The position numbers and the translations under genes were made by a program. A DNA stretch of 64,000 bases, taken from NCBI GenBank assembly GCA_947644305.1, contig CANRYS010000001.1, forward strand, positions 1 through 64,000, in the 5' to 3' direction. A model generated the notes under the pieces. It did no database searches. It was not told where the DNA came from and worked only from the letters and a program-made list of their open reading frames with translations. Below are positions 18,001 through 64,000 of this stretch, piece by piece. Each line of letters opens with the position of its first letter. Positions within the stretch are counted from its first letter, which is position 1. The DNA comes from an uncultured Roseburia sp. Lineage in GTDB: Bacteria > Bacillota > Clostridia > Lachnospirales > Lachnospiraceae.

Positions 18001-18033
18001 TACACAATTTTTTCTCTGCAATCATAAATAACC

Positions 18034-18098: not shown

Positions 18099-18115
18099 CC
18101 AGCGAAATAGCTATT

Positions 18116-18147
18116 TATCATTTATGTAATATTCTCCTCCTGTCGCT
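18116..18147 (-). pseudogene. 32-bp remnant of an ABC ATPase gene
   Basis: 31 of 32 bases match 14851-14882 inside the ABC ATPase gene. Translated on minus it gives ATGGEYYIND followed by Lys and a stop, against ATEGEYYIND in the intact protein. Nothing else of that gene remains; the BspA-like stop codon follows within three bases. It marks a deletion or recombination junction. Confidence 0.7.
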
Positions 18148-18149
18148 GC

Positions 18150-48842: not shown

Positions 48843-48882
48843 CACCTTACTCCTTCCCGCCTCCCAGCGCAGGCGGATATGA

Positions 48883-49755
48883 TTATTTTCCCCGCTCTGC
48901 CATCAGAAGCTCGATCTCCTGCTCATTGATCCCCACCATCGCTTCTCCCAGATCTTCCGAGAGTGCAGCGATCAGCTTAGAATCCGTATAATTGGCAACG
49001 GCTTTCACGATCGCCTGGGCACGTTTCGCCGGATTGCCAGATTTAAAAATGCCAGATCCCACAAATACACCCTCTGCTCCCAACTGCATCATCAGCGCCG
49101 CATCCGCCGGCGTCGCCACGCCTCCCGCCGCAAAGTTTACCACAGGAAGCTTTCCCTTGTTATGGACATACTGCACCAGCTCGAAGGGGACCTGAAGATT
49201 TTTTGCCTCATCAAATAATTCATCTTCCCGCAGGGAGGTAAGTTTCATCATCTGCCGGTTCATCATCCGCATATGACGGACCGCCTGTACCACATCCCCG
49301 GTTCCCGGCTCTCCCTTAGTACGTATCATGGCAGCTCCCTCATTGATCCGCCGCAATGCCTCTCCCAGATCTTTGGCACCGCACACAAAAGGCACTTTAA
49401 ATTTCGTTTTATCAATATGATATTTGTCATCTGCCGGAGAGAGCACCTCACTCTCATCGATGTAATCGATCTCAATGGCTTCCAAAAGCTGCGCCTCCAC
49501 AAAATGCCCGATGCGACATTTTGCCATAACCGGTATGGACACCGCCTCCTGAATTCCCTTGATCATCCTGGGATCGCTCATCCGTGCCACGCCTCCCACC
49601 GCCCGGATATCTGCCGGTATGCGCTCCAGCGCCATAACCGCACAGGCTCCCGCTTCTTCTGCAATGCGCGCCTGCTCTGGTGTCGTCACATCCATAATGA
49701 CACCACCCTTTAGCATCTGCGCCAGTTCTTTATTTAATTTATATCTCTCATTCAT
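48883..49755 (-). CDS. pdxS: pyridoxal 5'-phosphate synthase lyase subunit PdxS
   Basis: 290-residue TIM-barrel synthase subunit that makes PLP from ribose 5-phosphate, glyceraldehyde 3-phosphate and ammonia. [22 protein letters not shown] at the start, [15 protein letters not shown] with the active-site Lys, and [17 protein letters not shown] and [11 protein letters not shown] near the end. Highly conserved, normal length. Confidence 0.97.
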
Positions 49756-49884
49756 TGGAAATCCTCCTGGTCCTATTTACGAACATGTTCATAACAAACT
49801 ATACCGCAAAAGTGGCATTTTTAAAATATCCAATTTCATTTATTTTTACATGCCAGACTAATACCCGACCGAAAAACTTTACCA

Positions 49885-49923
49885 TAGCTCGACGGCGCCA
49901 ATTTGAATTCTGCCATCGAGCTA
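49885..49923. repeat. 39-bp minimal palindromic element
   Basis: tagctcgacggcgccaatt ... ccatcgagcta: inverted termini of 11 bp with one mismatch around aatttgaattctg. The first 31 bases closely match the left end of the 14221 element. It appears to be the shortest member of that family. Confidence 0.72.
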
Positions 49924-49929
49924 CATTAA

Positions 49930-49957
49930 AGAGACCTGGCTGAAAAGCCCAGGTCTC
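49930..49957 (-). terminator. hairpin downstream of lgt
   Basis: agagacctgg / ccaggtctct, a near-perfect stem with a short loop, 29 bp after the lgt stop codon. Only a short T-run follows on minus. Confidence 0.6.
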
Positions 49958-49985
49958 TGAAAAAAGTCACCATATAATATAATTT

Positions 49986-50855
49986 TTATACCGCCGATTT
50001 CCTTCGCAGGCGGATGCGCACAAACACCCAGATCCCAGCCCCGACAACAGCGATCACACCGGCAAGCATCTGGGATACAGCGATTCCCGTCGAACCGATC
50101 TGCAGTTGATCCGTGCGAAGCCCTTCGATCCACACACGCCCCAGTGCATATCCGACCATGTAAAGAATAAATATTTCTCCATTAAACTTCTTTTTCTTGA
50201 TCAGCACCAGGATCAATATAAGGACACCTACGTTCCACAATGACTCATAAAGAAAAGTGGGATGTACCTGGATGTAACTGACACCGTCAATGGTCTGCAT
50301 ATGTTCCCGCATCATATCGGTAATGTTAGCTGGATTTACTTCACTCACTTTCAGGCGCATGGCAAATAAACCGTTGGTATACTCTCCAAATGCCTCTCTG
50401 TTAAAAAAGTTTCCGTACCGCCCAATGATCTGTCCCAATATCAATCCCGCCACTGCCGTATCTGCCAACAAAAAGAAATTGTATTTTTTTACCCGGCAGT
50501 ATATGATCGCTGTCAAAATTCCCGCAATTACACTTCCATAAAGTGCCATGCCTCCCCCGCGGGTATTAAAGATCTGCAATAGATCATCCTTATATGAGTC
50601 CCAGCTAAAGATCACATAATACAGCCTAGCACCGATCAGAGAAAAGATGATACCATAGATCGCAAAATCCAAATATGTTTCCTTATTCTGTCCCGTCCTT
50701 TTCGCCTGCAGACAGGCGATCCAGAGACCAGCCAGCATACTTACCGCCATAATGATCCCATAAAATGCAATGGTAAATCCCCCAATGGTGATTCCTTTGG
50801 GAAGTTCTGGTATGGAGATGCCCAGATTAGGAAAAGCTATATCTGCTCCGTTCAT
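49986..50855 (-). CDS. lgt: prolipoprotein diacylglyceryl transferase
   Basis: 289 residues, seven membrane helices. Transfers diacylglycerol from phosphatidylglycerol to the lipobox Cys of prolipoproteins. Family motifs GARLYYVIF, RGGGMALYGSVIAG, GRYGNFFNREAFG (Lgt signature) and HPTFLYES are present. 36 bp downstream of ychF and on the same strand. Confidence 0.96.
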   Translation of the reverse strand: MNGADIAFPNLGISIPELPKGITIGGFTIAFYGIIMAVSMLAGLWIACLQAKRTGQNKETYLDFAIYGIIFSLIGARLYYVIFSWDSYKDDLLQIFNTRGGGMALYGSVIAGILTAIIYCRVKKYNFFLLADTAVAGLILGQIIGRYGNFFNREAFGEYTNGLFAMRLKVSEVNPANITDMMREHMQTIDGVSYIQVHPTFLYESLWNVGVLILILVLIKKKKFNGEIFILYMVGYALGRVWIEGLRTDQLQIGSTGIAVSQMLAGVIAVVGAGIWVFVRIRLRRKSAV

Positions 50856-50891
50856 GTTGATTCCTTCTTTCTATCTTTTTCATCTGGCATG

Positions 50892-51989
50892 TCACACATT
50901 AAAACGGAACAGCACGACATCTCCATCCTGCACCACATATTCTTTTCCCTCGGAACGAACCAGCCCTTTTTCCTTCGCTCCGTTGTAACCGCCATTTTCC
51001 ACGAGATTTTCATAACTTACCACCTCGGCGCGGATAAAGCCCCGCTCAAAATCCGTATGGATCTTTCCTGCTGCCTGGGGTGCCTTCGTTCCTCTGGTGA
51101 TCGTCCACGCCTTGGTCTCCTGCTCCCCGGAAGTCAGATAGCTGATCAGCCCCAGCAGACGATAGCTTGCCTTGATCAGTTTTTCCAGACCGGATTCCTC
51201 CAGACCCATATCTTCCAGAAACATTTTCTTCTCATCTTCGTCCAGCTCTGCGATCTCCTGCTCGATCTGGGCACAGATCACAAACACCTCGGAATCCTCT
51301 CCCCTGGCAAACTCCCGCACCTTGCTGACCTGCTCATTGGAAGCCCCGTCATCTGCCAGATCTTCCTCCGCCACATTCGCCGCATAGATCACCGGCTTTG
51401 ACGTCAGAAGATTATACTCCGAAAACCATGCTTCCTCATCTTCGTTCTCCAGTTCAAAATTTTTCGCCAGATGTCCTTCTTCCAAAAATCCTTTCAGGCG
51501 GTTCAGCATGTCCACCTCGCCAGCCAGTTTCTTATCCGCCCTGGCCGCCTTTACGCTTTTTGCGATCCTCCGCTCCAGAATCTCTATATCCGAAAAAATC
51601 AGCTCCAGATTAATGGTCTCGATATCCCGCAGCGGATCGATGCTTCCATCCACATGAACAATATTGCTGTCCTCAAAACATCTGACCACATGTACGATGG
51701 CATCCACTTCCCTGATATTGGACAAAAACTGATTTCCCAGTCCCTCGCCCTTGGAAGCCCCTTTGACAAGTCCTGCGATATCCACAAACTCGATCACCGC
51801 CGGCACAGTCTTGGCCGAGTGGTTCATCTCAGAGAGCACCTCCAGCCGTTCATCCGGCACCGGCACCACGCCCACATTAGGGTCAATGGTACAGAAGGGA
51901 TAATTGGCCGATTCCGCTCCGGCTTTTGTCAACGAGTTAAATAATGTACTTTTTCCCACGTTGGGGAGACCTACAATTCCGAGCTGCAT
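50892..51989 (-). CDS. ychF: redox-regulated ATPase YchF
   Basis: 365-residue OBG-family P-loop protein (Ola1 type). Walker A GLPNVGKSTLFNSL, TIDPNVGVVPVPD, DIAGLVKGASKGEGLGNQFL and a C-terminal TGS-like domain (WTITRGTKAPQAAGKIHTDFERGFIRAEV). YchF proteins prefer ATP over GTP and bind ribosomes. Length is typical. Confidence 0.96.
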   Translation of the reverse strand: MQLGIVGLPNVGKSTLFNSLTKAGAESANYPFCTIDPNVGVVPVPDERLEVLSEMNHSAKTVPAVIEFVDIAGLVKGASKGEGLGNQFLSNIREVDAIVHVVRCFEDSNIVHVDGSIDPLRDIETINLELIFSDIEILERRIAKSVKAARADKKLAGEVDMLNRLKGFLEEGHLAKNFELENEDEEAWFSEYNLLTSKPVIYAANVAEEDLADDGASNEQVSKVREFARGEDSEVFVICAQIEQEIAELDEDEKKMFLEDMGLEESGLEKLIKASYRLLGLISYLTSGEQETKAWTITRGTKAPQAAGKIHTDFERGFIRAEVVSYENLVENGGYNGAKEKGLVRSEGKEYVVQDGDVVLFRFNV

Positions 51990-52144
51990 AACATGTTTAC
52001 CTTTTCAGAAATCCTTTGTTTTCAAGGGTTTCTGCCTTTCTATGCGTTTTAACTGAATATTTTTCTTTTATTTTCATGGCACTGCCGATCATCACCTTTG
52101 CCACATCTGCAATAACCACATGGGCATGCAATAAATCTGTGTAA

Positions 52145-52191
52145 CAAAAAAGAGCCCTGGCACCGTATTAAAGTGTACCATAAAAGGGCTC
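52145..52191 (-). terminator. terminator of the RiPP operon
   Basis: gagccc/gggctc outer stem with inner ggcac/gtg(t)acc pairing, followed on minus by TTTTTT. It lies 33 bp after the last gene of the operon (stop at 52224). Confidence 0.88.
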
Positions 52192-52223
52192 AAAAGTAAA
52201 CGGTGGAATTTCTTTCATGAGAT

Positions 52224-53279
52224 CTAATATTCTATGTTCGCAATATTAAAATAACTTTCCAATGATTCATATTCGAAGTGATACATTTCATACAAATAAA
52301 GAATAACTTTATCAAGAATATTCTTCCTGTCCGTAATTTCAAACTTTAAAATCATATTTACAATTCTTATTGCCTGCTTTTCTAATTTAGCGTAAGCCTG
52401 TATAATCTCCTTCAACTTTGCATGATCATAATACTTATTATCACATAAATACATAAAGCGTAATTTCATTATTTTTTTATGTTCCATAAGCAAATAATAA
52501 TCCTGAATATGAATTTTAAATTTTTCATACTTCATTTCATTTGTCAAATCAATAAGCGCTAAATAATATCTGATTCCAAAAATCATTTCTTCTCTATTGC
52601 CCTGATTGTATAATCGCCAATATTCAGGAGGTTCTGACAAAAAATATGTTTTTATACTGTTTTCTATGTTCTTCAAATTAAACTCATAAGAACAGCTCTC
52701 TTTTAATTTAAAAGAATAAATCATATCGTTTAAAAACTTCCAATCTTCTCTCAGATTACAGCTATTAAACGCATCCCAGAATTCACTAAACGAAATAATT
52801 GCATTCTCATACCGTCCATGATAAAATACATCTGCCAAATACAATTTTTCAGCATTTATATCAATACCATATATAAGTGCATCATGACATTTCTTTTCCT
52901 TTTTACTTCCCAGAGATATAAAAGATTCATGATTCAAGTGCAAGTATAAATAGTTTTCCCCCGATAACTCTGAGTATAGAAAGTCAATTAGTTTATCCTT
53001 ATCACCCTCAAAATAGCTTCTTCGTACTCTTGATGTTTCAATCCAGTTACATATGTCCGATGGCTTAATTTCATAAGGATAAGGGAAGTAAAAGTCCCCC
53101 CAGAAATTTTTTTTTAGATTCTTACAGGCAAAAAGCAATATGAAGTTGCTAAAAATCCATTGATATGATTCTGGTTTTTTTTGTATAATTGATAAAATGT
53201 GCGCATAATGATTATAGGTGTGAATTATAGGTTTTTCTCTTTCTAAAATCACATGTTCGCGTTCTTTTCTAAATTCCAT
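52224..53279 (-). CDS. BtrH-like protein (papain-fold acyltransferase/peptidase-like), unknown role
   Basis: 351 residues, no signal peptide. Weak but patterned resemblance to BtrH_N-type domains found in antibiotic gene clusters: HLNHESFISLGSK, then HDALIYGIDINAEKLYLADVFYHG (about residues 115-155), where the strand after HxxxxYGxD is typical. In butirosin synthesis BtrH moves an acyl chain from an acyl-carrier protein to the aminoglycoside. The expected nucleophile is not obvious here. The C-terminal half is helical and unassigned. It is the last gene of the RiPP operon and could act with the ACP at 60790. GGAGGG precedes the ATG. Low GC. Confidence 0.5.
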   Translation of the reverse strand: MEFRKEREHVILEREKPIIHTYNHYAHILSIIQKKPESYQWIFSNFILLFACKNLKKNFWGDFYFPYPYEIKPSDICNWIETSRVRRSYFEGDKDKLIDFLYSELSGENYLYLHLNHESFISLGSKKEKKCHDALIYGIDINAEKLYLADVFYHGRYENAIISFSEFWDAFNSCNLREDWKFLNDMIYSFKLKESCSYEFNLKNIENSIKTYFLSEPPEYWRLYNQGNREEMIFGIRYYLALIDLTNEMKYEKFKIHIQDYYLLMEHKKIMKLRFMYLCDNKYYDHAKLKEIIQAYAKLEKQAIRIVNMILKFEITDRKNILDKVILYLYEMYHFEYESLESYFNIANIEY

Positions 53280-53316
53280 CTCTAATACCCTCCTGTTGAT
53301 ACACTGATATCATATT

Positions 53317-54993
53317 TTATCTTTCGATATAATAATTTCCTATAACCAAAATATCAATGCCCTTTTCCTTTTCAAACTCAATTAGCGCCTCACGCGGAGA
53401 GTTAACAATCGGTCTTCCATGTGTATTAAAAGATGTATTAACAATCATCGGGATGCTTGTCAAATCATAATATTCTTGCAAAAGACCATAAAGCAACTCA
53501 TTATCTTCCTGACACAAGTATTGTGGTCTTGAACTATCATCCACATGCACAATCGCTGGTACTTTTGATCGCCACTCTTCCCTGACAATACAGGTTTTAA
53601 GCATAAACGAGCTCATGTTTTGCGGTGTATCATCCTCAAAAACATCACTATAACATCTATCAAGAATTATAGGTGATAGCGGACGCCATAGTTCTCTTCC
53701 TTTAACCCTATTTAGTCGATTTGTAATATTTCTATCCACTGTACCAGCTAGTAAACTTCTTGCCCCAAGTGCTCTCGGACCAAATTCAAATCCTGATTGA
53801 AACCAACCTATTATTTTATTTTCATTTAAATCCTTAGCTATAGTCTTAGTTAGTAAAGAATCCTCCATATATTTAACTTTAAGCCTTGAGTTTTTTATAG
53901 AAACCAATACATCATCATTTGCATATGACTTTCCTAAATATACATTCTGAATTCTTTTGGGCGTATTTTTGTCAAATATACCTCTTTCTCTTGCTATTTC
54001 AAGTGCAGCTCCAACACTACATCCCGCATCATTCGAGGCTGGATAAACAAAAATATTATCAAATATCTTGCTCCGATCCAACTTGCCATTTGCAGTACAA
54101 TTTAATGCAACTCCACCAGCTAAGATAAGATTCTGAGTATTTACAATGCTTTTTAAATACTTCGCCATGTTAATGAACATTTCATCTAATGAATTTTGGA
54201 CAGATGCGGCAAAATTTGAATATGTCATTAATTCAGAAGCTTGAATTTCACCAATAGAGGCTCTTCTATATGGATAATTATTTTTTTCAAAATACTTTAT
54301 ATAGTTTTCTCTTGCTTCATAAAAATTATTTTTTTCATTAAAATAATCACTCTTGATCAAAAACTTTCCCTCGTCGCAATCAAAACTAATCGGCATTTTT
54401 TGATTTGGTATGCCATAGGAAGCTAATCCCATAAATTTACCTGGAACATCAAATCCTAAACCTACATATCCTGCCGCAGCATCATATAATGCGCCAAGAG
54501 AATATGCAATAGGGAATTTCTTTATCACTTCAAGATTTCCCATCGATACTTTGGCTAATGTAATGGCCTCATTCTCACCTTGTCCATCAATAACCATACA
54601 TGCAGCATCACTAAATCCACTTTGATAAAATGCGGCTGTAATATGGGTAATATGATGATTAACATAACCACACCGTATACGTTCTGCATTATACTTAAAA
54701 ATATTTGTTGGAAGAATCTTTTCTAAAAGTTCTTCCTTGTGCTTACCTTTTACTTCACCATGAATTCCTTCTGGTTCCCAACTTACCGCCACATAATCCA
54801 CGTCATCAACACTGATCCCTTCTTTATCAAGGCAATAAGCTATAGCATCTAATGGTGCTTCTCCCGGCGCATGTTTGCGTCTAGAAAATCGTTCTTGTTC
54901 TGCGGCCGCAACAACTAAACCATCCTTTATTAATGCAGCTGATGAATCATGACATTCACTTCCCGGGTTTCCAATAATTCCTAAAATATACAT
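53317..54993 (-). CDS. carbamoyltransferase, NodU/CmcH family
   Basis: 558 residues. Kae1-like N-terminal domain (ILGIIGNPGSECHDSSAALI, HITHITAAF with the metal-binding His pair, LAGGVALNCTANGKL) and the NodU/CmcH C-terminal domain (GFEFGPRALGARSLL, RPLSPIILD, IVNTSFNTHGRPI). Such enzymes use carbamoyl phosphate and ATP to carbamoylate hydroxyl groups of sugars or antibiotics. Here it sits in a peptide-modification operon, so it probably decorates the peptide or a sugar added to it. GGAGGG precedes the ATG. Confidence 0.92.
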   Translation of the reverse strand: MYILGIIGNPGSECHDSSAALIKDGLVVAAAEQERFSRRKHAPGEAPLDAIAYCLDKEGISVDDVDYVAVSWEPEGIHGEVKGKHKEELLEKILPTNIFKYNAERIRCGYVNHHITHITAAFYQSGFSDAACMVIDGQGENEAITLAKVSMGNLEVIKKFPIAYSLGALYDAAAGYVGLGFDVPGKFMGLASYGIPNQKMPISFDCDEGKFLIKSDYFNEKNNFYEARENYIKYFEKNNYPYRRASIGEIQASELMTYSNFAASVQNSLDEMFINMAKYLKSIVNTQNLILAGGVALNCTANGKLDRSKIFDNIFVYPASNDAGCSVGAALEIARERGIFDKNTPKRIQNVYLGKSYANDDVLVSIKNSRLKVKYMEDSLLTKTIAKDLNENKIIGWFQSGFEFGPRALGARSLLAGTVDRNITNRLNRVKGRELWRPLSPIILDRCYSDVFEDDTPQNMSSFMLKTCIVREEWRSKVPAIVHVDDSSRPQYLCQEDNELLYGLLQEYYDLTSIPMIVNTSFNTHGRPIVNSPREALIEFEKEKGIDILVIGNYYIER

Positions 54994-55057
54994 GCTTTTC
55001 CCTCCATATATTGTATTTTTTGTCGATTGGTTTCTACTAAATTCTTAATCATTTATA

Positions 55058-56902
55058 CTAATAATACTGGGCTTGGGCAGACCATAACTTTTTGTATTCT
55101 CCATCCTCATTTACCAATTGAGCATGCTTCCCCTGTTGAATGATTTGCCCATCTTTAAATACAATGATGCGATTACTCATCTTGCAGCTTGACATTCTAT
55201 GAGATACGAACAAAGTGAGCTGCTCTTTATTGGAATGTGACATGATTTTTTCGTAAATTTCATTCTCCGTTTTTGAATCCAGGGCACTTGACGGTTCATC
55301 AAAAACGTTGATCTTTCCTTTTTTGTAAAAGGCACGGGCAATCGCTACTTTTTGCATTTGTCCGCCGGATAATTCGACTCCCTTTTCCATATAATTGTAT
55401 AAATATGTATTTAGCCCTTCCTTCAAATTACTTACAATATTGCTTATACTTACTTCATCGCATACATCCATGACTTCATCCTCATTGAAATCCTGGTTGG
55501 CTGCGATATTCTGTCCCAGCAAAAATGCATAAAGCTTATAATCCTGAAACACAGCTGATAATAGCTTGTAGTACTCCTCTTCGCTTATTGTTTGTAAATC
55601 TACGCCATTTACATAGATTGTTCCAGATACAGGACGGTATAAGCCACACAAGAGCTTAATAAAAGTAGTTTTTCCTGCACCATTTCTTCCTACCACCGCC
55701 ACGACATCTCCTGCATTTAGCACGACATTGATATCCTTGAGTACCAGTTCAGACGAATCCGGATAGGAAAAATCGACATGACGAAACTCGATCTGAATCG
55801 GGGCCTGTATGCTTAATGTACCATTTTCCTCATTTTCTTCATCTAAATCAACAAAACTCAAATACTTCTTTATATAACCACATTTAATTGGTATCCATGT
55901 AACAACAGATGTCAGACTGTTCAAATGATTAAATACCGCAAGGATCGTAGAAACATAAAAGGATATCTGTCCGATTGTGATTATGCCATAAATTGCTTTT
56001 AATGCCACAAAGATATATACAACCAGCTGTATGGCAGTATTCAAAATAATACTAATTTGATTACTGCGTATACTTTTCTTTTGGATAATCGTTTCAAATT
56101 TTTTTACACCCTGATCGGATTCCTTCAGATTTTTCAAAATCATATCCTGCATATTGTATAAGCGTATATCTTTTCCAAGATTATACTCATAAACAAATCT
56201 GCGGAAATATCCAAATTTGTTATTTGCCATAACATTTTGTTCAAAAAAATCTTTCTGTATCGCTCCGACTCTTTTTATATTTCGGCAAATCACCCATATG
56301 TCGATTCCAAAAATACAAACAAACAAACATAATCCCAATGGAGAGTTGACAAGGATTCCCATTCCGCCTTCTATATGAACATCCTGCCTGACTAAAAACA
56401 GATTGCTGCAAACAACCAACGAATAGACAAATAAAAACACTCCGCCCAATGCTGAGCATATATCATTACATAAAGATTGTACTCCTCCATTTGATTTGCA
56501 GCCTTCTTCCGCAGTACGCAGTAATTCCTGCGTCCCCTTTGCCTCTAAAATTTCATAAGGAAGCGATACGGCAGTTTTAACAATCCGTTCTTTGGTCTTA
56601 TCTTCTATATATCGCTCCTCCACCTTTTTACTTTTATTTAATAACGCCTTTATTACATAAACCAATACATTTAACAATACCATAACGATCACAATATCAA
56701 AAATCTCCCTATGGGAAGATTTTTGTACCAGTTTATCAATGATAATGCTCATAAAAAACAAGTTAATAAATGGAGCCAGGATGTCTATTATTGTATAAAA
56801 GCCGGCAATTACAAGATATTTGGCGGAAATTTCCTTCACAAAACGCAAAACAGTAACAACATCCCGGAAGACGTCTTTTATTTTTCTATCCTTTTTCTGC
56901 AA
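55058..56902 (-). CDS. ABC exporter (fused permease-ATPase), second of pair
   Basis: 614 residues: about six membrane helices in the first 330 residues, then an ATPase with Walker A GRNGAGKTT, signature LSGGQMQKVAIARAF and Walker B INVFDEPSSALD, and VSHRMSS as H-loop. No N-terminal C39 peptidase domain, so it does not cleave a leader. TTG at 56902 is chosen, nine bases after GGAGG; a TTG at 56911 would touch that site. Adjacent to a related exporter, probably forming a heterodimer that exports the finished peptide. Confidence 0.9.
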   Translation of the reverse strand: MQKKDRKIKDVFRDVVTVLRFVKEISAKYLVIAGFYTIIDILAPFINLFFMSIIIDKLVQKSSHREIFDIVIVMVLLNVLVYVIKALLNKSKKVEERYIEDKTKERIVKTAVSLPYEILEAKGTQELLRTAEEGCKSNGGVQSLCNDICSALGGVFLFVYSLVVCSNLFLVRQDVHIEGGMGILVNSPLGLCLFVCIFGIDIWVICRNIKRVGAIQKDFFEQNVMANNKFGYFRRFVYEYNLGKDIRLYNMQDMILKNLKESDQGVKKFETIIQKKSIRSNQISIILNTAIQLVVYIFVALKAIYGIITIGQISFYVSTILAVFNHLNSLTSVVTWIPIKCGYIKKYLSFVDLDEENEENGTLSIQAPIQIEFRHVDFSYPDSSELVLKDINVVLNAGDVVAVVGRNGAGKTTFIKLLCGLYRPVSGTIYVNGVDLQTISEEEYYKLLSAVFQDYKLYAFLLGQNIAANQDFNEDEVMDVCDEVSISNIVSNLKEGLNTYLYNYMEKGVELSGGQMQKVAIARAFYKKGKINVFDEPSSALDSKTENEIYEKIMSHSNKEQLTLFVSHRMSSCKMSNRIIVFKDGQIIQQGKHAQLVNEDGEYKKLWSAQAQYY

Positions 56903-56939
56903 CTTTATCAACCTCCTTAATTTTCTGTTTCAAAACGAA

Positions 56940-58727
56940 TTACTTATAATATTTGCTTTGCACTTGATACATCCTTGCATATTCCCCTTGCTTTTTCATC
57001 AATGCATCATGTGTTCCTTCCTCAATAACCGCTCCCCCCTTTAAAACAATTATCCTGTCACAAAACTTAGTTGTCGCTAACCTATGGGAAACAAATATTG
57101 CCGTCCGCCCATTCACAAGATCCGAAAAATCTTCATATAGCTTTTTTTCTGCAATCGGATCAAGTGCGCTGGTTGGTTCATCCAGAATAATTATGCTGCC
57201 ATCTTGATAAAGGCTTCTTGCAAGCAATAATTTCTGTCTTTCTCCACCTGAAAAATCAACACCATTCCTGTCAATGATCTTAGACGTTCTAGTATATATA
57301 CCTTGCGGCAGTCCAGAAATCTTTTTATACAGTTCTATTTTTTTGAGTGTTTCGTTGACCCGTGTCGCATCCATCTGATTCAATGGCTTACATGCAATAT
57401 TTTCTCCAATCGAAAATGCTAACAGGGCGCTATCCTGAAAAACCACCGTAACATTATCTCGGAAAAAATCACTCCCCGTATCCACATTATATTTTTTGCT
57501 GCCTATCCATATTTCTCCATCAAAATTTTTATAAAGTCCTGTCAGAATTTTTATCAGTGTGGATTTACCTGCTCCATTTTCACCTACAAGGGCAATTTTT
57601 TCTCCCGGTTCGATTTCAAAACTTATATTGTCAAGAACTTTCCGCTCATTATTTGCATATGTAAAGGATACTTTTTCCAATTTAATTCCCATCTTTTGAT
57701 TTGAAGAATTTTTTGCATTCTCTTTGATATCTTGATTTTGTTTGTGTTCAACTACAACCTCCCGAAATGAATTAACCTGAATATTGGTTCTTTTCAAGTC
57801 TCCAACTGCTCCAACAATCTGAAACAACCATCCTGAAAATCCATTTATAATCCCAATATAAAAAGTAAACATAGCAATCGAAATATTCCCTGCCAAGACG
57901 CCGCGAATCAAAATATAATAGGCAACACCATCTTTTAATCCCATAAAAACCGCATCAGAAATCTCCGGATAGCTCCATACTTTTTCAATGTTGCCATTTA
58001 TCTTCTTTTTCTTTTTACACAATTTGTTGAACTCATCACAAAACCACGTTGACATACGAAACATAATAATGTCCTTTATATCCCTGTAATCCGTCATTGT
58101 GCGATATAAATAATCACATTGTTTCGAAACTTTTGCCTCTTCTTTATTATACTTTTTTAAGTATTCGCTTGCTTTTTTATTCAAAAATATATTTACGATA
58201 CACATAAGAATCAGTATCAATAAAATTCTGGCATCCATAGACACAATAATGCCCGTATATCCTATAATTCCAACCACGCCAATCAACAATTGGACTGACG
58301 CCCTCGTCATCCCCTCTATTCCCTCATAGTTACTGCCGATCGCCCTTGCTGCCATGCTCATCTTCGTCTGTGTTTCTTCCTTTTCAAGCACACAATAATC
58401 CATCTCCATCGCATTGCGGATCAGCATCTGGTTAAAATTCTGGTCACGGCACCAAGCCCCTATTTTATCAACCCATTGCGTTGTGTAATCCCTTAGAATG
58501 CTCAGGACAAGACACAATAACAAACTGCCGCACAAATAGATTACTAATTTTTTTCCACCTTCCTGCTCTGATACAATACTTACCACAAGTGCAGGAATTG
58601 CAGTTTCAAAAATGGGAAGAATACAACTGACAATGATCCGCATGGGAAATAGGTATCTCAATTGATGATACCAGTTAAATTCCTTTTTTAAGATATATTT
58701 TAAATTGCCTGCAATACTATATTTCAT
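56940..58727 (-). CDS. ABC exporter (fused permease-ATPase), first of pair
   Basis: 595 residues: a membrane domain of about six helices, then an ATPase with Walker A GENGAGKST, signature FSGGERQKLLLARSL, Walker B IIILDEPTSALD and VSHRLAT. No peptidase domain. It lies 28 bp downstream of the protease-fusion gene and 37 bp upstream of the second exporter, same operon. Confidence 0.9.
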   Translation of the reverse strand: MKYSIAGNLKYILKKEFNWYHQLRYLFPMRIIVSCILPIFETAIPALVVSIVSEQEGGKKLVIYLCGSLLLCLVLSILRDYTTQWVDKIGAWCRDQNFNQMLIRNAMEMDYCVLEKEETQTKMSMAARAIGSNYEGIEGMTRASVQLLIGVVGIIGYTGIIVSMDARILLILILMCIVNIFLNKKASEYLKKYNKEEAKVSKQCDYLYRTMTDYRDIKDIIMFRMSTWFCDEFNKLCKKKKKINGNIEKVWSYPEISDAVFMGLKDGVAYYILIRGVLAGNISIAMFTFYIGIINGFSGWLFQIVGAVGDLKRTNIQVNSFREVVVEHKQNQDIKENAKNSSNQKMGIKLEKVSFTYANNERKVLDNISFEIEPGEKIALVGENGAGKSTLIKILTGLYKNFDGEIWIGSKKYNVDTGSDFFRDNVTVVFQDSALLAFSIGENIACKPLNQMDATRVNETLKKIELYKKISGLPQGIYTRTSKIIDRNGVDFSGGERQKLLLARSLYQDGSIIILDEPTSALDPIAEKKLYEDFSDLVNGRTAIFVSHRLATTKFCDRIIVLKGGAVIEEGTHDALMKKQGEYARMYQVQSKYYK

Positions 58728-58754
58728 ATTTCCACGCCTTTCTTACAAACGAAT

Positions 58755-60557
58755 CTAAAAAAAATTAATGATATTTTGTACCAATTTTTCCATATCATTT
58801 TCTGTTCCAAGACAAAAAACTGGAATCTCAAACATTTTTTCAAATTTCTCTTTAGAAATCAGGAATTCGTCTTCAGAAAGTATGGTTTTCTTTCCATATA
58901 GTTCTTTCCATCCTTTGTCAATTGTCATTGGGAACACAACAATTGCAATAACTTTGCTGCCGTTTCCTATACTCTCTATCAAATTGATTGTATTTAAAAT
59001 ATACTTGGGATCATCATAGGGATTAATACACAAAATCACTGCATCCGGTTGAGTAGCCATCAAAAAATTAATTTGATCCGTTGTATAACATTCAAGATTA
59101 TTAAAATCATATGGTATAGTTCCTGATTGTGATCCAACAAGAATAATATCTTTATCCCTCTCACATATTTTTTGTAATTGATAATTTAAAATTTGAATAC
59201 CTTGTTGTACATCTACATATATTGATTTATTAAAGCCCATTGGAAACAAAAAATCAAAATTGTATAAATACGCACTAGGTTCAGTACCAATTTGTCCAAC
59301 ACTATATCCAAGCAGCATTAACCTTTTTCGTAATTCTAACTGTAACGAAAACTTTCCCTGTTTTGAACTTGTTCCGAACACTCCCAATACAGGTTTATTT
59401 ATTTGGAAAAGCTTTCCTTCGCGCACAGGTAACGCATTTGCTAAATCAACCCGCGGATAGTACAATTTTTCACTGCATGTCATATTCATCTCTTTAAGCA
59501 AATCATCAAATGCATAAACATTTTTCCCCTTTTCGATAGCGGTCTTTACTACTTTTTCCAGCATATCAGGGTTATTACTATAAAATTCATATTCTTTAAG
59601 ATGCCCAATTATTAATGTATCAAATGTATCCCATTCAATATTATTTATACTTTTTATCACATAATCCTTTTGGTCTTGAATATTAAGTAGTTTATTTACT
59701 GAGGCCCCGATATGTAAAGAAATTTTACTATCATAAATATCTACGATTTCAAAATCCAGCATATCTCTAAATCTAAACAGTGAATGCATTTCTTTATTAA
59801 AAGGAAACAAAGATGCACTTTCAATTTTAAACTGCGGAGACAAAACATCGGTAGATTTGTAAGAAATCTTTTTCACCGCCAAATCAGAAAATGCTGTTTT
59901 TATTTGTTGAAGCTCTCTTAATCCATCTAACATAAAGGATATAACTTGACGAGTAACATGTGCACAAGCAAAGCTATTTCCTGTTATAAGTAAATATGGG
60001 GGGGAAATCCATGCCACTCTTTGCAATCCACTCTTTGCACCAATATTGATTATTGTATCATTAAAATATACAAAATCATTGATCTTTTTACACGCCGCAC
60101 AACCAGTCACCCCCAAAACACAGTCAAATGCAGCTGGATACGACATTGCTCCCATATTATCAAATGCAGCAACTAAAATCGTTCCTTTTTCATATAATTT
60201 TCTACAAATATTTAATAATCTATTGCCTTCCATTAGCATAATCAGACCCAAACTCATATTAATTATGTCTACATCCAACTTTTCGTAAACATACTCTAAT
60301 GCATAACATAATATCTCCTCAGATATTTCTTCATCATCGAACAGCTTGATTATCTCAAATTGCACTCGCTTTTCTGCCCTTGTGTTGATTTGGTTACTAA
60401 TGATAGAAAAAATGGCCGTGCCGTGTCCAAATTCATCCTCTACATTATCATCAATACAAATCTTGCCATACTCCATATAAATATGATGTTTTCCGGCAAT
60501 AGAAGAATCTATATATTTTTTATCTATTCCACTATCTAGAATTGCCACATTTAACAT
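58755..60557 (-). CDS. subtilisin-like (S8) protease fused to a DUF1611-type P-loop domain
   Basis: 600 residues. N-terminal S8 peptidase-like domain: Asp in AILDSGID (D8), His in EFGHGTAIF (H45), Ser in GNSFACAHV (S195), with AFDN (about 131-134) as the oxyanion region; no signal peptide or propeptide, so it is cytoplasmic. From about residue 310 it resembles DUF1611: GTSSKQGKFSL (about 395-405) as P-loop, GTEPSAYLY, VGSQSGTIP and QPDAVILC. One DUF1611 member, DgcN, is reported as a D-glutamate N-acetyltransferase. The fusion suggests cleavage and modification of the peptide are coupled. ATG at 60557 follows GGAGG; 60569 would include that site. First gene after the precursor. Confidence 0.82.
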   Translation of the reverse strand: MLNVAILDSGIDKKYIDSSIAGKHHIYMEYGKICIDDNVEDEFGHGTAIFSIISNQINTRAEKRVQFEIIKLFDDEEISEEILCYALEYVYEKLDVDIINMSLGLIMLMEGNRLLNICRKLYEKGTILVAAFDNMGAMSYPAAFDCVLGVTGCAACKKINDFVYFNDTIINIGAKSGLQRVAWISPPYLLITGNSFACAHVTRQVISFMLDGLRELQQIKTAFSDLAVKKISYKSTDVLSPQFKIESASLFPFNKEMHSLFRFRDMLDFEIVDIYDSKISLHIGASVNKLLNIQDQKDYVIKSINNIEWDTFDTLIIGHLKEYEFYSNNPDMLEKVVKTAIEKGKNVYAFDDLLKEMNMTCSEKLYYPRVDLANALPVREGKLFQINKPVLGVFGTSSKQGKFSLQLELRKRLMLLGYSVGQIGTEPSAYLYNFDFLFPMGFNKSIYVDVQQGIQILNYQLQKICERDKDIILVGSQSGTIPYDFNNLECYTTDQINFLMATQPDAVILCINPYDDPKYILNTINLIESIGNGSKVIAIVVFPMTIDKGWKELYGKKTILSEDEFLISKEKFEKMFEIPVFCLGTENDMEKLVQNIINFF

Positions 60558-60608
60558 ATATACCTCCATTTATATCAATTTAACACAATAAATTTGCTAA
60601 AAAGTTCA

Positions 60609-60637
60609 CAACAGACCATAAAAAATATGATCTGTTG
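60609..60637 (-). terminator. hairpin after the precursor peptide gene
   Basis: caacagacca(t) / (a)tgatctgttg, a stem with one or two mismatches and an A/T-rich loop, 10 bp after the precursor stop. A weak T-run (CTTTTTAG) follows on minus. It probably lets precursor transcript outnumber the downstream genes. Confidence 0.65.
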
Positions 60638-60647
60638 CTTTTTGGTT

Positions 60648-60731
60648 TTAGCATCTGCAGTTGTTTCCTTCAGAATGGTAAAGGCTTACATTCTTACGCA
60701 CCTGCTTTGCTGGCTTCTTTAATACTTTCAT
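60648..60731 (-). CDS. 27-residue RiPP precursor peptide
   Basis: A short frame with a very strong site (AGGAGGTGATATC) before ATG 60731. It starts MKVLKKP, has a Lys/Arg-rich first half and a C-terminal segment ending SEGNNCRC, with two Cys one residue apart. It lies between an ACP gene and a protease gene, next to a radical SAM/SPASM gene, and is followed by a hairpin. Small Cys-bearing peptides beside a radical SAM maturase and an ACP-related protein are known from Clostridia ('Clo7bot'-type loci, from memory of database names). It is probably a leader (about residues 1-15) plus a core near the C-terminus. The modification is unknown. Confidence 0.78.
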   Translation of the reverse strand: MKVLKKPAKQVRKNVSLYHSEGNNCRC

Positions 60732-60756
60732 GATATCACCTCCTTGCTTTTTTTCA

Positions 60757-60783
60757 TCAATATATAAATATAATTGATGTCAA
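60757..60783 (-). promoter_or_regulatory. candidate promoter before the precursor peptide
   Basis: A perfect TTGACA -35 (60778-60783 on minus) lies just after the ACP stop codon. The best -10 is weak (TATTGA, 15-bp spacer). It could give extra transcription of the precursor. Confidence 0.3.
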
Positions 60784-60789
60784 ATCATG

Positions 60790-61032
60790 TTATTTCTCCT
60801 TTATAAGCTCTTCTATCAATGTGCATAAAGCATTAAAGGATTTCAAAATATCAACATCTAAATACTCATCTGGCAAATCAACATTAAATATATTTTCTAT
60901 TTCAACAACAAAATTTATAAACATCAGCGAATCTACTATATACTCGCTTAAGTCAACATCATCATTTCCAATATCGCTGACATCCAAACCTATTTCTTCC
61001 ATTATATTTTTTACTTTTTGCTTTGTATCCAT
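60790..61032 (-). CDS. acyl-carrier-protein-like, peptide maturation type
   Basis: 80-residue acidic four-helix carrier protein. The phosphopantetheine Ser is in YIVDSLMFINFV (S35). Such ACP-related proteins are listed with radical SAM peptide maturation systems in Clostridia, although what they carry is not known. It sits between the radical SAM gene (12 bp) and the precursor. No ketosynthase or adenylation gene is present, so the acyl source would have to come from elsewhere. AAGGAGG precedes the ATG. Confidence 0.85.
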   Translation of the reverse strand: MDTKQKVKNIMEEIGLDVSDIGNDDVDLSEYIVDSLMFINFVVEIENIFNVDLPDEYLDVDILKSFNALCTLIEELIKEK

Positions 61033-61044
61033 AATTTAACCTCC

Positions 61045-62379
61045 TTATATATGCATGTAATTGTTTCGATCTAATAGATCCAACACTAATTCAATATTAT
61101 TTTTTTGATCCGAACAATTGCCAACACCATCATTTTGAATTATATATTTAGGACAGTTTCTTCCTTGACATGCCCCTAAGAAAAAACAATTTTCACATTT
61201 ATGATTTAGCAAATTGAAATACCATTTCCGATGCTTTTCCTGGTCAATAAACATACTTCCATTTTGGTAAAGCGTGCCAATCTTATTATCTTCAAATTCA
61301 AAATCTTGCGTACACTTATATAATTCTCCATTTACACCTATCACATATGAAAAAGCATATCCAGCTGGACACAATCCCATTGAAGACAAAAAATTTAAAT
61401 TAATGTCTAAAGATAACTCGTCCCTGTAGTTCATAACTTTGGCATATAGGCCCCCCAAATCCTTTTTGTCTAATAACTGCTTATCCAGGCTGCTATCAAA
61501 CCTTTCTTCACTCCATTTCCCCATATAATGAGGAAACATACGGAATCTTTTGTCTTTTCCAAACAAAGAAATATAAGTTTTCACATAATCATCCAGCTTA
61601 CACACTGACTCATTGGTAAAATTAGTTCTAAGTGCAATTGTAAAGTATGATTTCTTGCAATTTTCCTTGATAGAAATCAGATTTTCCATGATTCTATTAT
61701 ATGTTCCGCACCCATTTTTCAGTTTTCTTAATTTATCGTGGATATCTTGAGGACCATCAATTGTTATTTGAAAATCGTAAACTTTACAATTCAACAATGC
61801 TAAAAAAGTATCCATATTTAAGTCATATCCATTAGTTGTAATTCCAGCAGAGTATTTTCTTTTGGCAGCTTGACATATATGTAATAATTTTGTTGAAAGC
61901 CGATAAATTATTTCCTTTGCTTCCAATGGTTCTCCGCCAAACCAACTTACTCTTAGTTCTGCATAGTTATGTATATTTTTTCTAACATACTTAATAATTG
62001 CTTCTTGCACACTTTCGCTCATTACTCCTGGTTTATGTTCTTCATAGCAGTACCCACATCTAAAATTACAGTCTTCAGTAGGCATAATAGTCAGCCTTAA
62101 AACAGGCGAATATTTTTCCCTTGCAATTAATTCTTCTGCATATTTTTGCTCATCACGGTTTTTAGGAACCAGATGTCCCTTTTGAACCAATATCTCATGT
62201 ATTTGTTCATTTTTATCATTCTTTTCTCCGGCAGATAATATTTCATAAACACAATCAATAGTCCCTTGGTCTTCAACACATACCAGCGAATCTACTCCTG
62301 TGATAGAATTAAACATTAACAAATTACCGTCCACTTGGCTTTTAATGACTTTCGTAAATCTTGACATAGTATATTCCAT
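61045..62379 (-). CDS. radical SAM/SPASM peptide maturase
   Basis: 444 residues. The N-terminal part (about 1-90) may act in leader recognition. The radical SAM core has CNFRCGYC (C104, C108, C111), WFGGEPL and ITTNGYDL. The C-terminal SPASM region has Cys in GLCPAGYAF, LYKCTQDF, CENCFFLGACQGRNCP and NCSDQ for auxiliary iron-sulfur clusters. Such enzymes form thioether or C-C links in small peptides. It is like the CcpM-type maturases of clostridial Cys-rich peptides. Next to a two-Cys precursor, it may form sactipeptide-type links. AGGAGG precedes the ATG. Confidence 0.92.
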   Translation of the reverse strand: MEYTMSRFTKVIKSQVDGNLLMFNSITGVDSLVCVEDQGTIDCVYEILSAGEKNDKNEQIHEILVQKGHLVPKNRDEQKYAEELIAREKYSPVLRLTIMPTEDCNFRCGYCYEEHKPGVMSESVQEAIIKYVRKNIHNYAELRVSWFGGEPLEAKEIIYRLSTKLLHICQAAKRKYSAGITTNGYDLNMDTFLALLNCKVYDFQITIDGPQDIHDKLRKLKNGCGTYNRIMENLISIKENCKKSYFTIALRTNFTNESVCKLDDYVKTYISLFGKDKRFRMFPHYMGKWSEERFDSSLDKQLLDKKDLGGLYAKVMNYRDELSLDINLNFLSSMGLCPAGYAFSYVIGVNGELYKCTQDFEFEDNKIGTLYQNGSMFIDQEKHRKWYFNLLNHKCENCFFLGACQGRNCPKYIIQNDGVGNCSDQKNNIELVLDLLDRNNYMHI

Positions 62380-62382
62380 TTT

Positions 62383-63177
62383 CTACCTCCTTATTGTCCA
62401 AAACTTATCAACATCCGTCGTTGTTATTATAGCTTTTGTGGGCATATATACAGTGTAATTTTTGGGTAAATATCCTTTAGGAACTAATTCATATTGTATA
62501 TCCTCATTATCTAAAGTAGAATTTACCCTAAACCGAAAAAAGTTTTTACTCATATAGCCAAAATACTGTTCTTCAATTTTTTTAATATTTTTAAAATTAA
62601 TTTTTCTGTTATATATAACATTTATTTTCTGACCTTGAATAAGTTTTTCCCTCATTTCACTAAGTGATAAATACACGCCATCATTGTCCTTAAAAAACAA
62701 ATTATATGTAGGATCTACAGTAATCCATCTATTTACTGAGTTTAAATAAATGGCTGTAACACAATGATTATCATATGGGAAAGTTCCTATAGGCAAACAC
62801 CTGACTGTCCTAGTATAAAATCCACAATATGATAGCATTTCAGCTAATGCTAATGCCTTAAAATAGCAATTACTTTTTTTGTTTTTGATGCTAACCAGAA
62901 GATTCAAAATTTTTTCATCCGTCTCCTTAATCTGTTCACTATTAGCTAATTTAACAAAAAGCCAATTCATCACTTTACTGATAATATTAATTTCTTTCTC
63001 CTCAGTAAATTTATCTTCCATGTTAAAAAACTTTGTCAATACCTTTACATTCTCATTTGATAATATCTGGTCACAAATATTAATTTCTACACTATCCTCA
63101 CAATATTCGCTAAATTTTTTTAAAAAAAATATATACTCACTTTGATAATAAGGATATTCGCCAAATAAATTTTCCAA
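62383..63177 (-). CDS. transglutaminase/thiol-protease-like protein
   Basis: 264 residues, no signal peptide. A papain/transglutaminase-like triad is visible: Cys in KKSNCYFKAL (C104), His in YDNHCVTAIY (H138) and Asp in WITVDPTYN (D155). Such domains occur as proteases or acyltransferases in peptide-modification loci (microcin J25 McjB and the B2-type leader peptidases are related folds). A leader-cleaving or ligating role is plausible. TTG start at 63177 with GAGGG nine bases before. It ends 3 bp before the radical SAM start. Confidence 0.72.
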   Translation of the reverse strand: MENLFGEYPYYQSEYIFFLKKFSEYCEDSVEINICDQILSNENVKVLTKFFNMEDKFTEEKEINIISKVMNWLFVKLANSEQIKETDEKILNLLVSIKNKKSNCYFKALALAEMLSYCGFYTRTVRCLPIGTFPYDNHCVTAIYLNSVNRWITVDPTYNLFFKDNDGVYLSLSEMREKLIQGQKINVIYNRKINFKNIKKIEEQYFGYMSKNFFRFRVNSTLDNEDIQYELVPKGYLPKNYTVYMPTKAIITTTDVDKFWTIRR

Positions 63178-63197
63178 ATCAAATCCCTCTATTAAAA

Positions 63198-63284
63198 TTA
63201 TTTTTCCAAATCTTTTTGTACCAACTCTAAATATAAACCATCAAAATACACAAAATATACTTTTTCATCCAATTCTCTCCTCAT
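63198..63284 (-). CDS. possible 28-residue peptide
   Basis: A short frame between the glycosyltransferase stop and the transglutaminase-like start, beginning MRRELDEK and ending LVQKDLEK; aromatic middle. The AAGGAG site touches its ATG, so a TTG start at 63272 (24 residues, GAGGAGAG before it) is better placed. Could be a small helper or a decayed gene fragment. No Cys. Weak call. Confidence 0.3.
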   Translation of the reverse strand: MRRELDEKVYFVYFDGLYLELVQKDLEK

Positions 63285-63288
63285 CTCC

Positions 63289-64000
63289 TTAGAATATATC
63301 GTTAATCTTTACCTTTCTTTCATGATAATCTTCCATAAGCTCTTTTAACTCTAGATAATATTGCTCAATTATATTTCCAAAAATATTAGTTTCCTCAAAA
63401 CTCATCTTCCCATCCCAGTCCATTTTCATCAAAGCAACTTCTAAATGCGGGAATTTTTTACAAAAATAAGCAAAATTTTTATATTGTTCTTTCACTTCAT
63501 TCTTCTTTCTCAAATGTTCTTGATGATAATTCACTGCATCTTTACAAAAACAAAATTTATATTCTTGCAGATAAAACTGATATGAAAAATCAACATCTTC
63601 AAATCCATATCCTTTATAATTAGTATCATACTCTGGTTGTCGCATACATAATGAGCGATCAAAAGCAATATTGCCACCATACGCTCTACTCCAGGCCATA
63701 AACATGCCTTTCAAATCTTCTCCGTAGCTTTCCAACAACTTACTATTCCCAGTAATTGACAAATAACACTTGTTTATTGCATTGTAAAAATCTGTTACAA
63801 TTTCTTTTTCTGTTATTATCTGTTTACTCTCTAAACTTAATAACTCTGGATAAAGATTATAAATCTTCATTTCATCCTTAAACTCAAACGACAACCCATT
63901 GGCATAAAAAGGCATTACAAGGCATTGCTTGCCAATGCAGACAATCTTATCCCCTTTATCAAGATTTTTTTTATGTGTCAAAACAAATTCAGGATTGGGT
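63289..64000 (-). CDS. glycosyltransferase with galactosyltransferase-type C-terminal motif (partial)
   Basis: The frame is open to the right edge (…NPEFVLTHKKN), so the N-terminus lies outside the window. The visible part has AYGGNIAFDRSL and YGFEDVDFSYQFYL (about residues 115-155 from the first internal start), typical of the C-terminal nucleotide-sugar region of GT2/GT7-type enzymes, where GFEDxD binds acceptor and metal. It likely glycosylates the peptide or is a precursor-sugar transferase. Same strand and close to the transglutaminase-like gene. Low GC like the rest of the operon. Confidence 0.78.
   Translation of the reverse strand, partial: PNPEFVLTHKKNLDKGDKIVCIGKQCLVMPFYANGLSFEFKDEMKIYNLYPELLSLESKQIITEKEIVTDFYNAINKCYLSITGNSKLLESYGEDLKGMFMAWSRAYGGNIAFDRSLCMRQPEYDTNYKGYGFEDVDFSYQFYLQEYKFCFCKDAVNYHQEHLRKKNEVKEQYKNFAYFCKKFPHLEVALMKMDWDGKMSFEETNIFGNIIEQYYLELKELMEDYHERKVKINDIF

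Follow-up and report, generated by a model that had tools for sequence, protein, structure and literature searches.

The nearest described system to the one treated here is the CcpM/CLI_3235 system, in which members of TIGR04065, TIGR04066, TIGR04068 and TIGR04069 stand, unfused, with an S8 protease and an ATP-binding cassette (ABC) exporter. This unfused version, with genes for a radical S-adenosylmethionine (SAM) enzyme, a TIGR04066 protein, a protein related to acyl carrier protein (ACP), an S8 protease and ABC proteins, is in print as an in-silico five-gene cluster of Roseburia (PMC4573289) and as the SacP23 cluster (PMC10731318). The SacP23 authors proposed the S8 protease for leader removal and listed the TIGR04066 protein as immunity; the cluster gives antimicrobial activity, and the N-terminus of its peptide is blocked to Edman degradation (PMC10731318). 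In the literature consulted the role of ACP-related proteins in clostridial radical SAM peptide clusters is only proposed. We describe here a relative of these clusters, found in 64,000 nucleotides of an uncultured Roseburia sp. (assembly GCA_947644305.1, contig CANRYS010000001.1, positions 1 to 64,000; this whole stretch is called the window), which is an operon of the type making ribosomally synthesised and post-translationally modified peptides (RiPPs). An earlier reading of the letters alone (the sequence-only reading) had arrived at such an operon, and our analysis supports it, since a radical SAM enzyme, an ACP, an S8-DUF1611 fusion, an exporter, a Cys-ending precursor and a BtrH-like protein are all present. 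That the peptide is cross-linked, decorated and exported is what we infer for it.

The minus-strand run extends from position 52224 to past the end of the window and comprises, by frame list and family searches, ten credible genes in the following order.

63289..64000, minus strand: family 2 glycosyltransferase (GT2), running on to contig position 64269 (whole frame matches PF00535 at 100 bits)
62383..63177, minus strand: transglutaminase-like (papain-type) protein, 264 aa (PF01841 Transglut_core, 26.6 bits, cut-off 23)
61045..62379, minus strand: radical SAM/SPASM peptide maturase, 444 aa (Pfam Radical_SAM; conserved Cys)
60790..61032, minus strand: acyl carrier protein, 80 aa, with a phosphopantetheine Ser in DSL (PF00550, 36.7 bits; Ser35 invariant)
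60648..60731, minus strand: precursor peptide gene, 27 aa, with a short Lys-rich N-terminus and then VSLYHSEGNNCRC (AAGGAGG ribosome site; peptides of locus L068; motif counts)
58755..60557, minus strand: fusion of a subtilisin-like S8 protease with a TIGR04066/DUF1611 P-loop domain (Pfam, NCBIfam, invariant sites, AlphaFold2 model, fold matches)
56940..58727, minus strand: ABC exporter (1), combining membrane and ATPase parts in a single frame (PF00005)
55058..56911, minus strand: ABC exporter (2), likewise a single frame for membrane and ATPase parts (PF00005)
53317..54993, minus strand: O-carbamoyltransferase of the NodU/TobZ type, 558 aa (PF02543, PF16861)
52224..53279, minus strand: BtrH/CtaG-fold protein of 351 aa without a conserved catalytic Cys (AlphaFold2, predicted local distance difference test (pLDDT) 87; Foldseek)

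All genes share a strand, the gaps between them measure 3-111 bases, and the G+C content of the large ones is 27-37% (39% for the precursor), against 46% for the flanking lgt and 51% for ychF. The first gene, for the glycosyltransferase, extends 269 bases beyond the window and is partial in it; its full frame encodes a 326-aa GT2. The large frames of the sequence-only reading were thus all recovered in place on a single strand, and its short gaps and lower G+C were borne out. It had counted eleven frames, of which ten are credible; the eleventh, 28 aa at 63198-63284, has a ribosome site as its sole support and is left out of the count.

The sequence-only reading had named a neighbourhood search as its own refutation test, and in that search the core genes and a precursor candidate were found to recur together. 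Scanning genome contigs for the fusion-query pattern gave 32 loci, and the fusion was present in 8 of 392 genomes of an order sample and 12 of 397 of a family sample, own genome included. Neighbourhoods were available for 50 loci, from which 6 duplicates were removed, and with the window locus 45 were compared; any match to an iterated profile within a stretch was counted, the figures for ABC, LytTR and GHKL proteins being raw and without a background rate. Many loci end at contig ends, so that absences are uncertain, and the scan favoured close relatives. A radical SAM enzyme was matched in 38 of the 45 loci, an ACP in 37 and ABC proteins in 39 (often twice), while a BtrH-like protein occurred in 15 and a family called FamX in 14, never both (29 together). 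Less frequent were the transglutaminase-like protein (10 loci), a second radical SAM protein (8), a LytTR regulator (9) and a GHKL kinase (7). The record titles of fusion-bearing entries name Lachnospiraceae, other Clostridia, Tumebacillus and Paenibacillus. Searching 295 genomes with the radical SAM enzyme placed the five best of 32 matches outside the own genome within a few kb of fusion genes, while the fusion-bearing genome G191 gave no match in this search. Plasmid searches returned 134 records for the radical SAM enzyme, with identity below 60% throughout, and five for the fusion, in its S8 part only. This is a real and recurrent family of radical SAM RiPP clusters, divergent from the classical CcpM/CLI_3235 type. 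One fusion cluster (L074) also holds a YcaO cyclodehydratase at 10866-12593.

The fusion is a single 604-aa frame with Peptidase_S8 and DUF1611 matches. Translation probably starts at its fifth codon (60557), which has GGAGG upstream, as the listed ATG at 60569 is without a ribosome site. In 25 of 25 fusions of the window type the residues D12, H49, N138, S199, G405 and K406 are invariant, which comprises the Asp-His-Ser triad and oxyanion Asn of S8 proteases as well as the Gly-Lys (GK) of the P-loop. The DUF1611 half scores 31.3 bits with PF07755 (cut-off 25) and resembles 2obn with a template modelling (TM) score of 0.70 by target length. The AlphaFold2 model (pLDDT 87) has fold matches to the DUF1611 structures 2g0t and 2obn, to subtilisins and to DgcN (7xrj, an N-acetyltransferase by its entry title).

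The P-loop GK separates this family from its classical counterparts, being present in 25/25 window-type fusions and in 0/15 unfused TIGR04066 proteins with a readable site. The latter include 13 that exceed the family cut-off and one near-identical pair, and come from a comparison of 26 loci in which L123 is a fragment without the P-loop site. The carrier protein behaves in the same way. Its Ser35, in a DSL-like context, is invariant in 20/20 and in 37/37 window-type proteins (frames of 70-130 aa with E below 1e-8), and the Ser is found in only one of 12 classical ACP-related proteins, which were hand-picked among the neighbours of TIGR04066 genes, contain two near-identical pairs and are missing from view beside some of those genes. 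The window-type family thus keeps a carrier Ser and a P-loop GK that are missing in 11/12 and 15/15, respectively, of the classical counterparts examined. In the clusters that can be checked the GK and the intact carrier Ser occur together, a correlation from few independent cases which suggests that carrier protein and P-loop domain work together.

With its invariant Ser the carrier protein is apparently a working one. Two genes of the phosphopantetheinyl transferase family are found in the own genome. In the Paenibacillus polysaccharolyticus locus L034 (7884-9418 and 16135-17892), a phosphopantetheinyl transferase, an enoyl-ACP-reductase-like protein and an amino-acid adenylation protein, which scores with the ACP profile too, are encoded beside the precursor, ACP, fusion and radical SAM genes. 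Judged from these residues and predicted folds, carrier-protein chemistry may take part in the window-type family.

The precursor of the window ends in LYHSEGNNCRC, its C-terminus being CRC, and in the closest relative, L068, the two peptides end in LYHSEGNNCRC and LYYSEGNNCRC, so that LY[H/Y]SEGNNCRC is shared. A crude rule for precursors (Lys/Arg-rich start, later Cys, ribosome site), formulated after the first peptides had been inspected, picked 39 of 102 small plus-strand intergenic frames inside the clusters, spread over 31 of the 45 loci, against 0/34 on the opposite strand inside clusters and 4/102 and 3/76 (7/178) outside. A Cys-bearing precursor candidate beside the core genes is in this sense a recurrent feature under strand and outside controls. 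One of the 39 is the AgrD frame of L028, which passed the filter and was removed for motif counting. Among the 38 peptides left, h-x-h-Y occurs in 29 (shuffles: mean 2.8, maximum 9) and Y..E..C in 28 (shuffles: mean 9.7, maximum 20), both patterns having been picked post hoc. NCBIfam gave no family and no TIGR04065 match for the window peptide, a 27-aa query with little power, and for the precursors of six relatives the best TIGR04065 score was 7.5 bits (L028; cut-off 26), plus one chance match.

The radical SAM enzyme carries the CxxxCxxC motif and seven SPASM Cys, conserved at 0.97-1.00 (n = 34; frames of 400-520 aa with E below 1e-8): C104, C108, C111, C337, C356, C395, C398, C404, C409 and C422. 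This places it among SPASM maturases in the broad sense. The best NCBIfam match, TIGR04463, reaches 205.8 bits with a cut-off of 525, and the best solved relative (47 bits) is 5wgg, which we take to be CteB. As to a ranthipeptide, the relevant sequence evidence is the Y..E..C motif alone, in which Glu precedes Cys. A Glu-Cys link is a guess, and other acceptors are possible. At or near the transglutaminase-like genes of L068 (3575-5185) and L044 (2181-3773) a second, different radical SAM-like protein is encoded, about 530 aa in length, whose extended N-terminal portion might, on visual inspection, bind cobalamin; Pfam Radical_SAM was shown for the L044 protein only.

The BtrH-like label given by the sequence-only reading also held. 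Pfam gave no BtrH match for the window protein itself; among 17 family members, however, five give a BtrH_N match (best E 2.6e-5), and a Foldseek comparison of the model with the PDB gave 19 chains at E <= 0.001, all of them AziU2-U3, CtaG or CcbD, among them 8gs1, 9qvl (CtaG) and 9dks (CcbD-PCP). By their entry titles the CcbD structures include complexes with a carrier domain. FamX is tied to the BtrH-like family by cross matches and alignment, the model being made for the window protein. His132 is kept in 23 of 25 aligned sequences, frames outside 290-400 aa having been dropped, and position 21 holds Thr, Ser or Cys in 19 of the 25. In the transglutaminase-like protein C104, H138 and D155 are present in 10 of 10 homologues. 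Profile searches against PDB sequences gave no credible match for the BtrH-like protein, nor for the transglutaminase-like one. In the proposed closthioamide pathway CtaG is described as transferring a peptidyl group from one carrier protein to another, and CtaJ as a transglutaminase (PMC6772006).

Taken together, we consider that the odds lean slightly towards a product which is a radical-SAM-modified peptide, acylated or aminoacylated from the carrier, freed of its leader by the fusion and exported, and here perhaps glycosylated and carbamoylated and possibly under Agr control. The genes, their recurrence, the conserved active-site residues and the predicted folds are the solid part of this, and every chemical step, its order, location and regulation we infer. 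The product would be a short ribosomal peptide of roughly 10-15 residues around VSLYHSEGNNCRC. In a first step the SPASM radical SAM enzyme would recognise the Lys-rich N-terminus of the precursor and join a C-terminal Cys to a residue nearer the N-terminus, for which the conserved Glu is the likeliest candidate. The phosphopantetheine arm of the carrier would then take up an acyl or aminoacyl group, to be passed on to an amine of the peptide by the BtrH/CtaG-fold protein, the transglutaminase-like protein or both. Third, leader removal would fall to the S8 domain and take place in the cytoplasm, as in the case of QhpE, while the DUF1611 domain joined to it would act on the product, perhaps by N-acylating the N-terminus thus exposed. 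Export by the two ABC proteins may follow, and in this genome only the GT2 would add a sugar and the TobZ-like enzyme carbamoylate a hydroxyl, while the Agr-type system just upstream would probably control the operon. It is tempting to go further and see here a new class of hybrid pathway, in which a cross-linked ribosomal peptide is acylated or aminoacylated from a carrier in the manner of non-ribosomal peptide synthetases (NRPS), without an NRPS line, with leader removal and N-terminal action by the S8-DUF1611 fusion, Agr control and, here, glycosylation and O-carbamoylation; this wider claim is tentative and in our estimation falls short of an even chance.

Several observations weigh against the carrier-acylated peptide. 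No adenylation or acyl-ligase gene is found in the window operon. The BtrH-like fold matches reach TM 0.46-0.59 only, and in the alignment of 25 sequences no column has Cys in at least 30%, so that this protein may bind rather than catalyse. The transglutaminase-like gene is present in just 10 of 45 loci, and L068, with a nearly identical core peptide, is without glycosyltransferase or carbamoyltransferase. The window-type motif has Glu before Cys, the reverse of PapB substrates; PapB joins Cys to an Asp/Glu further along the chain and allows variable spacing, and flexibility of orientation is reported as well (PMC9413430). The crude filter yielded no precursor in 14/45 loci, some candidates (L040, L041 and L094) deviate from the motif, and the genome G191 (L072) has a fusion and no radical SAM match in its stretch. 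No AgrB stands beside the AgrD frame, five AgrB genes being located elsewhere in the genome, and the AgrD frame has a weak ribosome site. Finally, there are distant S8-TIGR04066 fusions of 560-569 aa (L128 1426-3135 and the near-identical L136 1498-3180 and L138 736-2418) with SK or NK instead of GK and no ACP-like frame beside them in roughly 4 kb examined, and L130, an unfused weak TIGR04066 match (48 bits), carries GK. GK and fusion do not, then, always coincide, and an S8-TIGR04066 fusion alone is not unique to the window-type family. In L122 (37-2544) an 835-aa frame, which may be a further fusion, includes a TIGR04066 domain; the Cys-rich peptide next to it resembles CLI_3235 by eye.

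The alternative that survives best, and which we nevertheless regard as unlikely, is a plain radical SAM RiPP of the ranthipeptide or sactipeptide type, in which carrier and BtrH-like protein are only a scaffold and no acyl group is transferred. A radical SAM enzyme, a precursor, an S8 protease and ABC proteins would suffice for such a product, the BtrH-like family is without a conserved Cys, and classical ACP-related proteins lack the Ser in 11 of 12 cases; the classical SacP23 cluster gives antimicrobial activity, its own ACP-related protein lying outside those 12. The plain RiPP accounts less readily for a carrier Ser that is invariant in 37/37 proteins, for a transglutaminase-like triad intact in 10/10, and for the presence of both a phosphopantetheinyl transferase and an adenylation protein next to the homologous cluster L034.

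The glycosyltransferase and the carbamoyltransferase call for separate treatment. The latter exceeds the cut-offs of both its N- and C-terminal Pfam domains (184.9 and 154.5 bits) and aligns over its full length with TobZ (317 bits), as expected of the NodU/TobZ type. Within the stretches examined each of the two genes occurs in 1 of the 45 loci, that of this genome. Of the combination announced by the sequence-only reading the core parts recur, then, and these two are genome-specific in our sample; carbamoylation and glycosylation as defining features of the pathway were rejected for this reason. Plausibly the two enzymes form an add-on that adds a sugar and carbamoylates it, tied to the peptide by position and composition only. 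Improbably, in our view, they serve another pathway (e.g. a surface sugar) and merely share the low-G+C island. Their absence from the other 44 loci within the stretches examined would agree with that, as would the occurrence of carbamoyltransferase relatives elsewhere, in the own genome (C10, 34% identity) and in three of 295 genomes, none with a fusion match. However, the carbamoyltransferase gene sits in the co-directional run, separated by 64 bases from the ABC gene ahead of it and by 37 from the BtrH-like gene that follows, and the glycosyltransferase gene is the first of that run, both with the same low G+C.

Least probable of all is a lipopeptide-like product, in which the carrier brings a fatty acyl chain and the DUF1611 half puts it on the N-terminus freed by the protease, for although this half matches the fold of the N-acetyltransferase DgcN (7xrj) as well as other DUF1611 structures, the related SacP23 peptide is N-terminally blocked (PMC10731318) and L034 has an enoyl-ACP-reductase-like gene, the better matches are the DUF1611 proteins of unknown function 2g0t and 2obn, a blocked N-terminus has other causes, and SacP23, whose TIGR04066 protein is unfused with a site outside the 15 read, may be no guide, since 15/15 unfused proteins are without GK.

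Regarding the carrier-acylated peptide as the preferred reading, the upstream genes and the signals around the operon are of interest. A LytTR regulator and a GHKL kinase lie directly upstream, outside the window, and an AgrD-type frame (contig 64369-64500, i.e. L006 4369-4500; 22.3 bits, cut-off 19) lies between this AgrC/AgrA-like pair and the operon. The kinase gene is followed by a terminator-like hairpin, and the AgrD frame is preceded by a promoter-like site, such sites being no more numerous than in shuffles. In L028 an AgrD frame immediately precedes the ACP gene. The Agr genes have a higher G+C than the operon and may be of other origin for that reason; possibly this Agr-type system controls the operon. 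Upstream of the promoter-like site a 15-base direct repeat with 32-base spacing (L006 4678-4692 and 4710-4724) is a possible LytTR operator. Two hairpins accompany the operon itself.

60608..60638, minus strand: terminator-like hairpin, 13 pairs with a T-rich tail, between the precursor and the downstream genes; possible attenuator (hairpin scan)
52145..52191, minus strand: terminator hairpin, operon end, possibly a backbone element (sequence; like sequence in 2/7 congener stretches)

Over the region there were 6 terminator-like sites against 4.9 in shuffles, so that the hairpin scan alone is not significant. A stem of at least 10 pairs lies 3' of the precursor in 10 of 38 candidates, own included (a raw count without a control). 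A hairpin in this position would fit attenuation, giving more precursor than enzyme. The terminator at 52145-52191 that the sequence-only reading assigned to the operon exists as a hairpin; it may be backbone, because similar sequence adjoins ychF in the congener stretches L106 and L108 (2/7). No Rfam family was found at 50000-64000 of the window and no tRNA at 48000-64000.

The operon has the look of an accessory island next to ychF, since a full-length fusion occurs in 0/36 same-genus genomes (matches at E <= 1e-3 being partial, in the S8 or P-loop part), ychF is matched in 34/37 genomes of the genus (own included), and the congener G004, one of seven ychF stretches, lacks it. G004 spans the site, with ychF, about 3.4 kb of other sequence in which some frames resemble pieces of a tyrosine recombinase by eye, and then sequence like that of the contig from 71.9 kb onward. 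The other matches of the fusion in the own genome, on C18 and C7, are partial and in the S8 part. Beside ychF in an operon-less congener (L107 2537-3209) there are pieces resembling a tyrosine recombinase by eye, possibly an insertion hot spot. A second low-G+C stretch of the window is located at 15001-19000 (35-38% in 2-kb windows against about 45%).

What this locus adds is a question open to testing: with the fold of carrier-dependent enzymes and, in one locus, a loading module, does the carrier put a group on a ribosomal peptide? If true, this would join RiPP and carrier-protein chemistry. Reconstitution is practical because the precursors are short (24-61 aa for the candidates) and the operons compact. 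The sequence-only reading did not know the combination as a described pathway. We likewise found no paper on it; the kinds of parts are already in print in the unfused Roseburia and SacP23 clusters. Nothing was recognised on an S8-TIGR04066 fusion or on a carrier-protein/radical SAM RiPP in a search from which most subscription papers were outside, making this absence weak.

Among named radical SAM families, Clo7bot (TIGR04334, CtpM) and TIGR04463 are nearest to the window enzyme, which scores 169.7 bits with TIGR04334 (cut-off 600). In one annotated Clo7bot locus peptide genes are numerous, and its gene table, which is incomplete, lists neither an ACP nor an S8 protease within about 5 kb. As regards the protease, QhpE and QhpD of quinohemoprotein amine dehydrogenase offer a likeness in pairing a radical SAM enzyme with an S8 domain of the QhpE kind, and QhpE cuts the leader from a peptide carrying Cys-Asp/Glu thioethers made by QhpD (PMC7876137). 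The S8 half of the window protein reaches 105.2 bits on NF049966 (cut-off 165) and is fused to DUF1611, and the QhpE/QhpD substrate is an enzyme subunit, unlike that of the window system. CtaG, CcbD and AziU2-U3 share the Foldseek fold of the BtrH-like protein (E 1e-9 to 2e-5) at 8-12% identity and TM about 0.5. The operon is like the CtaG pathway in having a carrier protein and a transglutaminase-like neighbour, as with CtaJ; it differs in that the BtrH-like family has no conserved catalytic Cys and in that a ribosomal peptide would be the acceptor. TobZ, the relative of the carbamoyltransferase, acts on an aminoglycoside sugar.

The comparison with CcpM/CLI_3235 is the closest, and can be made within one genome, as contig 19 (L019 7504-13193) holds a second, classical cluster with a CLI_3235 precursor (27.9 bits, cut-off 26), a TIGR04066 protein (287, cut-off 200), a CcpM-type radical SAM enzyme (486, just below 500), an ACP-related protein (23.5, below 70) and an S8 protease. 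A phenylacetate-CoA-ligase-like gene lies there between precursor and radical SAM genes, and the Ser-less ACP-related protein might be its partner. The window proteins score 85 bits with TIGR04068 (radical SAM; cut-off 500) and 99.9 with TIGR04066 (fusion, homologous and divergent; cut-off 200), and the ACP has no match to TIGR04069 up to E = 1; membership in CLI_3235 or Clo7bot was rejected, the family cut-offs, for CLI_3235 all four, being missed. Both systems have a Cys-bearing precursor, a SPASM radical SAM enzyme, a TIGR04066 domain, an ACP-like protein, an S8 protease and an ABC exporter, whereas the window system has S8 and TIGR04066 fused, a P-loop GK, a carrier Ser and a different family of short precursors, and adds genes for a BtrH-fold and a transglutaminase-like protein.

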